A stretch of DNA of 64,000 nucleotides, taken from assembly GCF_030219325.1 (NCBI RefSeq), contig NZ_CP126625.1, positions 434,001 to 498,000 of the forward strand, in the 5' to 3' direction. The position numbers were made by a program, and so were the translations under genes. This document shows, one piece after another, positions 108-51,127 of the stretch. A model generated the notes under the pieces. The model had not been told where the DNA came from. It ran no database searches and worked only from the letters and a program-made list of their open reading frames with translations. The first letter of the stretch is position 1. Each line of letters starts with the position of its first letter. The DNA comes from Geothrix sp. Lineage in GTDB: Bacteria > Acidobacteriota > Holophagae > Holophagales > Holophagaceae.

Positions 108-164
108 ATGGTCAACACCAATGGCATTACCACCACCACGCACACCGCCGTGCGGGGCACCTGA
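108..164 (+). CDS. Putative Thr-rich leader peptide of the thr operon
   Basis: This is an 18-codon reading frame starting ATG and ending TGA, rich in threonine (seven Thr, with a run ITTTTHT), lying 72 bases before thrA. A GAGGG stretch at 93-97 could serve as its ribosome site. A strong terminator hairpin follows at 188-216, just before thrA. This order (Thr/Ile-rich short peptide, terminator, thrA) is the classic layout of ribosome-mediated attenuation in enterobacterial thr operons. The same frame is open back to base 3, so it could instead be the end of a longer gene cut by the window edge; the Thr run and position favour a leader. Confidence 0.6.
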   Translation: MVNTNGITTTTHTAVRGT

Positions 165-48097: not shown

Positions 48098-48544
48098 GTG
48101 GACCTGCTTGATGAATTCCTGCCCTACGCCCAGAGCTGCCTGAGGCACCCCTCCGAGCGGGCCCGTCTGGCGGTCATCCTCACCCAGTGGGCCGCCAAGT
48201 GGCAGGGGAAGCAGCGGCTCTTCGACTATTCCCGCAGCCACCATGGGGCCTACCTCCACTTCAACCAGCTCATGGGCGGGAAGTGGGTCCAGGCCTTCAC
48301 CTTCGTGGCCACCCGGCGCGAGGGCGTCTGCCTGCGCGGCCCCGAGCCGGATCGCACCCGCAAGGCCCACAAGTTCCGCCACAACCCCCTGGATGCCGCC
48401 CCTCTGGAGGCCCTCTTCGAGGCCTGGTCCCTGCATCCCGAAGCCCGGCCGGCCGGCCACGCCGTGGAATTCTTCCTGGAGGAGACCCCGGATGACGTGT
48501 GGGCCGCCTGCCTGGCGGAAACATTGACCCACCTCGGCACCTGA
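48098..48544 (+). CDS. Hypothetical protein
   Basis: A 148-residue soluble protein, rich in Trp, Phe and His, without signal peptide or membrane segment. I do not recognise the family. The GTG at 48098 with GGAG six bases upstream is the best start; no in-frame ATG is well placed. The reading frame upstream overlaps the divergent kinase gene and is probably not coding. It lies just before the phe leader and ends 20 bases before it. Confidence 0.65.
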   Translation: MDLLDEFLPYAQSCLRHPSERARLAVILTQWAAKWQGKQRLFDYSRSHHGAYLHFNQLMGGKWVQAFTFVATRREGVCLRGPEPDRTRKAHKFRHNPLDAAPLEALFEAWSLHPEARPAGHAVEFFLEETPDDVWAACLAETLTHLGT

Positions 48545-48564
48545 AGTAAGGTGTCAGGACCGCC

Positions 48565-48633
48565 ATGCTGATCTCCCGCCGCTTTTTCGCCTTCAGCTTT
48601 CGCACCTCGGGTGCGAGGCCGGGCGGCGTCTAG
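48565..48633 (+). CDS. Putative Phe-rich leader peptide of pheA
   Basis: A 22-codon reading frame, ATG to TAG, with four Phe in six codons (RRFFAFSF, two of them TTT codons that are rare in this GC-rich genome). It ends 68 bases before pheA and is followed by a terminator hairpin. This is the layout of the attenuators of enterobacterial pheA. Ribosome stalling at the Phe codons would decide whether the terminator forms. Confidence 0.75.
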   Translation: MLISRRFFAFSFRTSGARPGGV

Positions 48634-48655
48634 AACGAAACCGCTTCCGCCATCG

Positions 48656-48684
48656 CCCCCGAGACCTCACGGCTCGGGGGTTTT
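48656..48684 (+). terminator. Attenuator/terminator hairpin before pheA
   Basis: CCCCCGAG (48656-48663) and CTCGGGGG (48673-48680) form a perfect 8-base stem with a 9-base loop, followed by TTTT. It sits 18 bases before the pheA ATG. A smaller hairpin in the leader (CGCACC/GGTGCG, 48601-48615) could be the pause or part of an alternative fold. Confidence 0.8.
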
Positions 48685-48701
48685 CGCATTCAGGAGTAAC
48701 C

Positions 48702-49808
48702 ATGATTCAGCCTGATCCCCAGTCTCTCGCCGGCCTCCGCCAGGCCATCGACGCGGTGGATGACCAGGTGCTGGCCCTCCTCAACCGGCGGGCGGGCCTC
48801 GCCGCGGAGGTGGGGCGCCTGAAATCCGAGGCGGCTCCGGAGGCCCTCTTCCACGCGCCCAAGCGCGAGCGGGAGATCCTCGCACGGCTGGAGGCGGCGA
48901 ATGCCGGCCCCTTCCCGGATGCCGCCGTGCGCACGATCTTCCAGGAGATCATGAGCGCCTGCCTGAGCCTGGAGAAGCCGCTGCGGGTGGCCTTCCTGGG
49001 GCCCGAGGGCACCTTCACGCACCTGGCAGCCCGGCACCAGTTCGGCGGCTCCAGCCAGGCCCTGCCCCAGGGCACCATCCAGGCCGTGTTCCAGGCCGTG
49101 GAGCGGGACCGGGCGGACTATGGCGTGGTGCCCGTGGAGAACGCCACGGAAGGGGCCGTGGATTCCACCCTCGATGCCTTCCTCGACAGCCCGCTGCGCA
49201 TCTGCGCGGAGATCCTGCTCCCCGTGGACCAGGCCCTGCTGGTGCACCCGGGCCTGGATCTCGGCAGCGTCCGGCGGGTCTATTCCCATCCCCAGGCCCT
49301 GGGCCAGTGCCGACGCTGGCTGGAGACCCACATGCCCCAGGCGGACCGCATCGAGGCTCCTTCGACCTCCGAAGCCGCCCGTCTCGCCCGGGAGGACGGC
49401 GAGGGGGCGGCCGTGGCCTCGGAGCTGGCCGCGGAGCTCTTCGGCCTCCGCGTGGCGGAGACGCGGATCCAGGACCTCGCCGCCAACGCCACCCGCTTCG
49501 TGGTGCTGGGGCCCAAGGCCGCAGAGCCCACGGGCCGGGACCGCACCACCCTGCTGGCCATGGCGCAGGATGGCCCGGGTGCCCTGCTGCGCCTGCTGGA
49601 ACCCCTCGCCCGCCGCGGCCTGAACCTGAGCCGCATCCAGAGCCGGCCCACCCGGCGGAAGCTCTGGGAGTACGCCTTCTTCCTGGACGTGGAGGGCCAC
49701 GCCGAGGATGCCCCCATGGCCGAGGCCCTCGTCGAACTCCAGACCGCCTGCGCCTCGCTGAAGGTGCTGGGCAGCTACCCGCAGGCCCCCATGGAAGGTG
49801 CGCGATGA
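48702..49808 (+). CDS. pheA: Bifunctional chorismate mutase / prephenate dehydratase
   Basis: A 368-residue P-protein that turns chorismate into phenylpyruvate for phenylalanine synthesis. The AroQ chorismate mutase domain is at about 1-85 (LRQAIDAVDDQVLALLNRR), the dehydratase domain at about 92-275 (VAFLGPEGTFTHLAA, VPVENATEGAV, ANATRFVVLG) and a C-terminal ACT domain (GALLRLLEPLA, then IQSRPTRRKLWEYAFF) that binds phenylalanine. AGGAG precedes the ATG. The stop overlaps the start of aroF-type DAHP synthase. Expression is probably set by the Phe-rich leader and hairpin upstream. Confidence 0.95.
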   Translation: MIQPDPQSLAGLRQAIDAVDDQVLALLNRRAGLAAEVGRLKSEAAPEALFHAPKREREILARLEAANAGPFPDAAVRTIFQEIMSACLSLEKPLRVAFLGPEGTFTHLAARHQFGGSSQALPQGTIQAVFQAVERDRADYGVVPVENATEGAVDSTLDAFLDSPLRICAEILLPVDQALLVHPGLDLGSVRRVYSHPQALGQCRRWLETHMPQADRIEAPSTSEAARLAREDGEGAAVASELAAELFGLRVAETRIQDLAANATRFVVLGPKAAEPTGRDRTTLLAMAQDGPGALLRLLEPLARRGLNLSRIQSRPTRRKLWEYAFFLDVEGHAEDAPMAEALVELQTACASLKVLGSYPQAPMEGAR

Positions 49809-51127
49809 AGCCCTGGACCCCCGATTCCTGGCGGGGTCTGCCCGCCGCCCAGCAGCCCGTCTACCGCGATCCCGCCGCCGTCGACACCGTGCTGGCGGAG
49901 CTGCGCGAGCTGCCGCCCCTGGTGGTGGCCGAGGAGGTGGATTCCCTCCAGAAGCTGCTGGCGGAGGCCGCGGCGGGTAGGCGCTTCCTCCTGCAGGGGG
50001 GCGACTGCGCCGAGGCCTTCCGGGACTGCCGCGGTCCCATCATCCAGGACAAGCTGCGCGTGCTGCTGCAGATGTCCGTGCTCATCACCCACGGCGGCCG
50101 CACCGGGGTCATCCACCTGGGGCGCATCGCGGGTCAGTACGCCAAGCCCCGCAGCGGCCTCACCGAGCAGGTCAACGGCCAGGAGGTTCCGGTCTACCGC
50201 GGGGACCTCATCAACGGGCTGGCCCCGGACCAGCGGGAGGCGGATCCCGGCCGGCTGCTGGAGGCCTATCACCGGGCCGCGGCCACCCTGAACCACCTGC
50301 GGGCCCTGGTGGATGGCGGCTTCGCGGACCTGCACCATCCCGAGCACTGGGACCTGTCCTGGAGCCGGGAGGATGCGGGCCACTACCTGGAGACCCTGGA
50401 CCAGGTGCGGAACTCGCTGGATTTCGTCCAGCGCCTGGGCGGGCTGCCGGAGCACCTGCGGACCGGCGAGCTGTTCACCAGCCACGAGGCCCTGCACCTC
50501 CCCTTCGAGGCGGCCCTCACCCGCTTCGTGCCCGAGTTCGACCGCCACTACAACCTGGGGGCCCACTTCCTCTGGATCGGCGAGCGCACCCGGCAGCTCG
50601 ATGGCGCCCACCTCGAGTACATCCGGGGTCTCGCCAATCCCATCGGCCTGAAGGTGGGTGCCTCCATGACGCCCGACCAGCTGCGGCAGGTGCTGGCGAA
50701 GCTGGATCCCGAGCGGAAGGCCGGCCGCCTCACGCTCATCACGCGCTTCGGCGCGGGGCGGGCCGAAGCCGTGCTGCCGGCCCTCATCGAGGCGGCCCGC
50801 GCCGAGGGCCATCCCGTCCTGTGGAGCTGCGACCCCATGCACGGCAACGGCCGCCAGGCCGCAGGCGGACTTAAGACCCGGGCCTTCGGGGACATCCTCC
50901 AGGAGCTGCAGGAGGTCGCGGCCCTCCATCGGGTCCACGGTTCGCGCATGGGGGCGGTGCACTTCGAGCTGACCGGCGAGCCCGTCACCGAGTGCACCGG
51001 CGGCATGGAAAAGCTGAACGAGGCGGACCTCGAACGGGCCTACCGCAGCGGCTGCGACCCCCGGCTGAACCGCAGCCAGAGTCTGGAGATGGCCTTCCTC
51101 ATCGCGCAGATGATCCGGGAGTCGTGA
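49805..51127 (+). CDS. Class II DAHP synthase
   Basis: A 440-residue class II 3-deoxy-D-arabino-heptulosonate-7-phosphate synthase, the first enzyme of the shikimate pathway. Motifs: FLLQGGDCAEAF, THGGRTGVIHLGRIAGQYAKPR, HFLWIGERTRQLDGAHLEY and SCDPMHGN. It condenses phosphoenolpyruvate and erythrose-4-phosphate. The ATG overlaps the pheA stop by four bases (ATGA), so it is translated with pheA and probably shares its attenuator. Confidence 0.95.
   Translation: MKPWTPDSWRGLPAAQQPVYRDPAAVDTVLAELRELPPLVVAEEVDSLQKLLAEAAAGRRFLLQGGDCAEAFRDCRGPIIQDKLRVLLQMSVLITHGGRTGVIHLGRIAGQYAKPRSGLTEQVNGQEVPVYRGDLINGLAPDQREADPGRLLEAYHRAAATLNHLRALVDGGFADLHHPEHWDLSWSREDAGHYLETLDQVRNSLDFVQRLGGLPEHLRTGELFTSHEALHLPFEAALTRFVPEFDRHYNLGAHFLWIGERTRQLDGAHLEYIRGLANPIGLKVGASMTPDQLRQVLAKLDPERKAGRLTLITRFGAGRAEAVLPALIEAARAEGHPVLWSCDPMHGNGRQAAGGLKTRAFGDILQELQEVAALHRVHGSRMGAVHFELTGEPVTECTGGMEKLNEADLERAYRSGCDPRLNRSQSLEMAFLIAQMIRES

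Follow-up and report, generated by a model that had tools for sequence, protein, structure and literature searches.

Results

Genes and leader reading frame at the pheA locus

The window, the whole stretch of 64,000 nucleotides analysed here, comes from a Geothrix genome of 3.73 Mb in a single contig and carries pheA followed by a class-II DAHP synthase gene (Table 1). Upstream of pheA lies a short open reading frame, the leader, in which four of the six codons of the run TTT TTC GCC TTC AGC TTT (FFAFSF) specify Phe. Its stop codon is followed after 22 bases by the stem of a hairpin with a perfect 8-bp stem and a 9-base loop, and the T run behind this stem ends 17 bases before the pheA start. 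A preliminary description of this DNA had proposed just such a Phe-rich leader with a perfect 8-bp hairpin before pheA, and direct reading of the open reading frame, the stem and the TTTT confirms it. The same description assigned the leader jointly to pheA and the class-II DAHP synthase. This arrangement holds at the present locus, and most Geothrix loci have the class-II gene 3' of pheA, but several Geothrix genomes keep the leader without a class-II DAHP synthase gene beside pheA; judged by gene neighborhoods, the leader travels with pheA and not with the class-II DAHP synthase.

Table 1. Features of the pheA locus and of further leaders in the same genome (positions refer to the window unless a contig or locus is named)
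Feature	Position	Strand	Remarks
Putative promoter	48524..48552	+	-35 TTGACC 48524-48529, 17-nt spacer, -10 TAAGGT 48547-48552; recurs in relatives
Leader peptide ORF	48565..48633	+	reads MLISRRFFAFSFRTSGARPGGV, then stop
Phe control codons	48583-48588, 48592-48594, 48598-48600	+	within leader ORF
1:2 (protector) hairpin	48601..48615	+	CGCACC-TCG-GGTGCG; 96.5% of cells paired, 38 distinct sequences
Antiterminator 5' strand	48606..48618	+	CTCGGG.GCGAGG; overlaps 1:2 hairpin
Small nested hairpin	48623..48644	+	GCGG/CCGC around leader stop codon; 96.1% of cells paired
Antiterminator 3' strand	48650..48663	+	CC.TCGC.CCCGAG; overlaps terminator 5' arm
Terminator hairpin	48656..48684	+	CCCCCGAG (48656-48663), 9-base loop, CTCGGGGG (48673-48680), TTTT (48681-48684); 99.7% of cells paired
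Shine-Dalgarno of pheA	48692..48696	+	AGGAG; outside terminator and antiterminator hairpins
pheA	48702..49808	+	chorismate mutase - prephenate dehydratase - ACT; Pfam CM_2, PDT, ACT
Class-II DAHP synthase	49799..51127	+	Pfam DAHP_synth_2, E 9e-176; start overlaps pheA end
Thr-rich leader before thrA	108-164		MVNTNGITTTTHTAVRGT, then stop; terminator ~189-216; gene at 237
Asn-rich leader before asnB	G000:C1, asnB at 1943741; leader ~L153:1346-1432		MTLSHQRFNRNTNRLPRADRAWAGKGLS, then stop (RFNRNTNR); terminator
Pro-rich leader before proB	G000:C1, proB at 2631497 (L207; L176:1401-1540)		MKSTQNLIPRPGHPIPAAGGLQV, then stop (IPRPGHPIP)
Trp leader before trpE	G000:C1, trpE ~1858407; leader L205:1279-1371		MLLSFPIPCQGLSSEAWWWRTGSDGSLCEA, then stop; terminator

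The putative promoter has counterparts elsewhere, with a TTG-17-(C/T)A..GT pair present in most of 40 leaders and the -10 element ending 12-13 nt 5' of the leader ATG. If the TTGACC/TAAGGT pair is the promoter, transcription would start at about 48558-48560 and the 5'UTR would be some 5 bases long, giving an almost leaderless transcript. A generic sigma-70 promoter scan found no promoter and no strong consensus before the leader, and a generic terminator scan did not list the 48656-48684 hairpin. We attribute both omissions to the fixed rules of these scans, and for the terminator we infer that the 9-base loop and the presence of only four Ts were responsible.

Conservation of the control codons

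In 37-38 of 39 aligned leaders, Phe occupies codons -4, -2 and 0, with TTT and TTC both in use. The end product of the operon is thus encoded by a cluster of codons that change synonymously in relatives; at codon -5, Tyr is the main substitute for Phe. The preliminary description had named a lack of conserved Phe codons in relatives as evidence against its reading, and the codons prove to be conserved. The residues 3' of the Phe codons vary freely (V/A/L/P/T at +7, then G/S, and V/I/Y/F/H at +10) except where codons build RNA helices, and the codons GGT GCG are nearly fixed. Because the residues drift except at control codons and helix-forming codons, the pattern fits selection on the leader for codons and RNA and not for the peptide product.

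A functional small protein, with the hairpin as an ordinary terminator or intergenic structure, is in our judgment a very improbable account of the same reading frame. Its frame, its length and part of the peptide (FSFR..GA) are indeed conserved across the Geothrix genus, and some leader peptides act in trans, as does Sinorhizobium peTrpL (PMC7298713). The conserved residues, however, coincide with control codons and RNA helices while other positions change freely, the reading frame is always the immediate 5' neighbor of pheA and disappears or decays where pheA is lost, and the hairpin falls within the putative transcript, 17 bases from the pheA start. A scan of the 64-kb window for a residue-rich short reading frame followed by a terminator and then a gene returned only the Phe leader and a Thr leader; since only these two were found and the Phe leader recurs in 37/37 pheA-bearing genomes, it is more than a chance arrangement.

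Mutually exclusive RNA structures

In nearly every leader the 1:2 hairpin opens with CGCACC, its 5' strand, at the base directly adjoining the final Phe codon, and the control codons are thereby placed for a stalled ribosome to mask this strand. An antiterminator can be drawn that pairs 48606-48618 with 48650-48663 and encloses the small nested hairpin, and for it 93.9% of cells in the alignment are paired, compared with 39-49% in slid controls. It shares bases with both the 1:2 hairpin and the terminator and therefore excludes each of them; classical attenuation requires mutually exclusive structures of this kind. In prefix folding, a transcript extending to 48664, with ribosome masking up to 48605, folds into the antiterminator at -33.0 kcal/mol. 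Such prefix folds are more stable than those with shuffled upstream sequence in most leaders tested (z -1.2 to -4.5), and the count of paired terminator-arm bases is often not extreme on its own because the sequence is GC-rich. The terminator hairpin by itself has an energy of -20.9 kcal/mol (z -4.4 against shuffles), and thermodynamics favor it in the full-length RNA if ribosome masking and the order of folding during transcription are left out of account. The preliminary description had pointed to competing terminator and antiterminator folds as the structures to look for; computationally, by prefix folding and alignment counts, they are present, mutually exclusive and conserved.

Compensatory changes are few, with one in the 1:2 hairpin (A-U to G-C, in L043) and four double-change cells in the antiterminator alignment, where L043 also shows changes; the covariation is thin because the leader sequences are very similar. 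The hairpin has the form of an intrinsic terminator with a U-run before the first structural gene. This U-run is short here (UUUU) and weaker in some relatives, with only CUUCG or CUUUC in L022, L025, L028, L017 and L026, CUUCG being the form in the first three. The structural case is weakest in its thin covariation and its short U-run. The weak U-run, here and more so in those relatives, also favors another idea, in which translational control or termination by Rho plays the main part at pheA and the hairpin is no intrinsic terminator; the cys operons of Mycobacterium offer examples of leader peptides without clear terminators (PMC1262725). We nevertheless regard this idea as unlikely, given that the Shine-Dalgarno sequence of pheA lies outside both the terminator and the antiterminator hairpins and that most leaders retain a GC-rich hairpin with T3-T5 behind it.

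T-boxes control aromatic amino acid genes in Firmicutes, and a tRNA-sensing T-box or a metabolite-binding riboswitch in place of a translated leader was a further candidate. Comparison with Rfam gave no known leader, T-box or riboswitch over the window at the gathering threshold, or over 48400-48900 at E values up to 10, and the predicted transcript before the terminator is only ∼100 nt long and mostly coding. Judged by Rfam models, the candidate is refuted, and its remaining probability is close to nil.

Distribution among relatives

The leader stands before pheA in 37/37 pheA-bearing genomes of the Geothrix genus, of which 36 have a full-length pheA and one has a pheA whose reading frame is broken, and it is also recognizable in three genomes of two other Holophagaceae genera, g24 and g19 (L037, L041 and L042). 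A leader motif scan of named genomes retrieved only Geothrix (including the laboratory strain Geothrix fermentans, L059), Holophagaceae and one unplaced Acidobacteria record. No intact leader was found in the nine Geothrix-genus genomes without detectable pheA, of which some are incomplete assemblies and some nearly complete; in one of these, G021 (L140), the leader is decayed and has no terminator. In G011 (L134) the leader is kept and pheA is deleted after its first codons. Leaders are absent from the pheA loci read in genera g18 and g20 (L038-L040) and in other families of this class (L030, L054 and L056), and a covariance model of the leader gave no match in the two families that the class contains besides Holophagaceae.

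Fused enzymes and relocated leaders in sister genera

In genera g23, g21 and g17, a single gene encodes a fusion of chorismate mutase, prephenate dehydratase, ACT domain and type-I DAHP synthase (670-680 aa). In several genomes the next gene encodes an aminotransferase, and in g17 the fusion gene is also followed by genes that we take, from our own reading of the sequences, to be aroB and aroA. The partner fused to pheA in g23 is this type-I DAHP synthase and not tyrA, as had first been expected. The fusion genes are likewise preceded by leaders with Phe codons, to which Tyr codons are added in g23 and g21 (TFTFTPAARRYYYGGGGG). In the latter leaders (L045-L050 and L052), the Phe codons precede the 1:2 hairpin and the Tyr codons lie in its loop, an arrangement that makes a dual Phe/Tyr sensor possible. 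When prefixes of the fusion-gene leaders are folded with the control codons occupied by a ribosome, leader sequence pairs with the terminator 5' arm, and the fold energy is clearly better than that of shuffles in 5/8. In genus g20, a Phe/Tyr leader (TFFYYFGF) stands before the class-II DAHP synthase gene (G080 and G082; L125 and L126), and pheA of this genus, in G078 and G079, has no leader.

Further leaders in the same genome

Peptide-coded attenuation of more than one amino acid operon had also been part of the preliminary description, and this genome supports the idea with further leaders for Thr, Asn, Pro and Trp (Table 1). The Thr-rich leader precedes thrA, a bifunctional aspartokinase-homoserine dehydrogenase gene, and a simple script found related Thr leaders in several, not all, relatives. 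An Asn-rich leader with a terminator is present at 30/30 asnB (asparagine synthetase) loci examined in the genus, and in a masked fold the antiterminator arm of the asnB leader pairs 11/12 bases. Pro-rich leaders precede proB (glutamate 5-kinase) in 25/27 loci of the genus by the rule of the script; the terminator here is CCCCCGA..TCGGGGG, and a CCCCCG..GGGGG(T/C)TTT-type terminator is found in most proB loci, where fold support is weak. The Trp leader before trpE is identified by three Trp codons (WWW) and a terminator only, a simple masked fold having given no antiterminator support. No obvious leader was seen before leuA, and hisG lies inside an operon. Beyond the window, the analysis covered stretches of the genome and targeted searches; a script run over 400 kb of this sequence yielded no additional convincing leader, so such attenuators are not dense in the genome.

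In G004/G067 (L133 and L139), a single Ile leader (VFISMISIPHGG) precedes a threonine dehydratase gene, and a single leader with Phe, Tyr and Trp (RFTHRYW) precedes a class-I DAHP synthase gene.

A search of the open-access literature turned up no description of an Asn leader at asnB or a Pro leader at proB, and Asn at asnB may be an addition to the amino acids sensed by leader peptides. Earlier predictions may exist in a comparative study of bacterial attenuation from 2010 (Lopatovskaya et al., doi 10.1134/S0026893310010164, cited in PMC4833913).

Discussion

The Phe leader of Geothrix is very probably a classical ribosome-mediated transcription attenuator that senses Phe-tRNA, a reading drawn from codons, predicted RNA structures and gene position. 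RNA polymerase would start just 5' of the leader reading frame, and a ribosome would translate the peptide behind the polymerase. With ample Phe-tRNA, the ribosome would pass the Phe codons, reach the stop codon and leave; the 1:2 hairpin (48601-48615) could then form, region 3 would be free, and the 3:4 hairpin (48656-48680) with its U-run would stop transcription before pheA-aroF. With scarce Phe-tRNA, the ribosome would stall at the Phe codons, its footprint would cover CGCACC (region 1), and CUCGGG.GCGAGG would pair with CC.UCGC.CCCGAG to form the antiterminator, blocking the terminator and allowing pheA and the DAHP synthase gene to be transcribed.

The closest parallel is the enterobacterial pheL-pheA system (Rfam Phe_leader), in which, as here, a Phe-rich leader peptide is combined with alternative 1:2, 2:3 and 3:4 hairpins and a terminator directly before the chorismate mutase-prephenate dehydratase gene. 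The Geothrix leader, however, has no sequence or covariance-model match to Phe_leader and is not a member of that family by sequence; it differs further in its acidobacterial host, in the DAHP synthase gene that overlaps the end of pheA, in its shorter U-run and in its very short predicted 5'UTR. The same logic of cognate codons and exclusive hairpins operates in the trp, his, thr, leu and ilv attenuators of Proteobacteria and in the trp and ilvB attenuators of Actinobacteria (PMC1262725), the amino acid and the lineage being different, whereas the T-box leaders of Firmicutes act on the same kind of target pathways but respond to uncharged tRNA and have no leader reading frame. Attenuation of this kind is thus an established mechanism, and what appears new is the lineage together with some of the amino acids sensed. 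A survey of premature terminators listed almost no predicted Acidobacteria attenuators with an assigned function (PMC2965389), and the pheA leader supplies a well-supported mechanism for one attenuator in that phylum.

With moderate confidence, we further propose that Holophagaceae possess a multi-amino-acid system of leader attenuators for Phe, Phe plus Tyr, Thr, Trp, Asn, Pro and perhaps Ile, including a Phe/Tyr OR gate at the fused gene, where stalling at either Phe or Tyr codons would free the antiterminator. If true, such a gate would match a fused enzyme that feeds both pathways. One acidobacterial lineage would then carry several leader-peptide attenuators, and the greater novelty of the findings lies in this lineage-wide set and its candidate leaders for Asn, for Pro and for Phe together with Tyr; the Asn and Pro leaders, if true, would widen the set of amino acids sensed by leader peptides. 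The loci also form a natural series, with Phe only at pheA, Phe plus Tyr at the trifunctional fusion, Phe/Tyr moved to the DAHP synthase gene, and relics after the loss of pheA, which allows the gain, retuning and loss of such switches to be studied.
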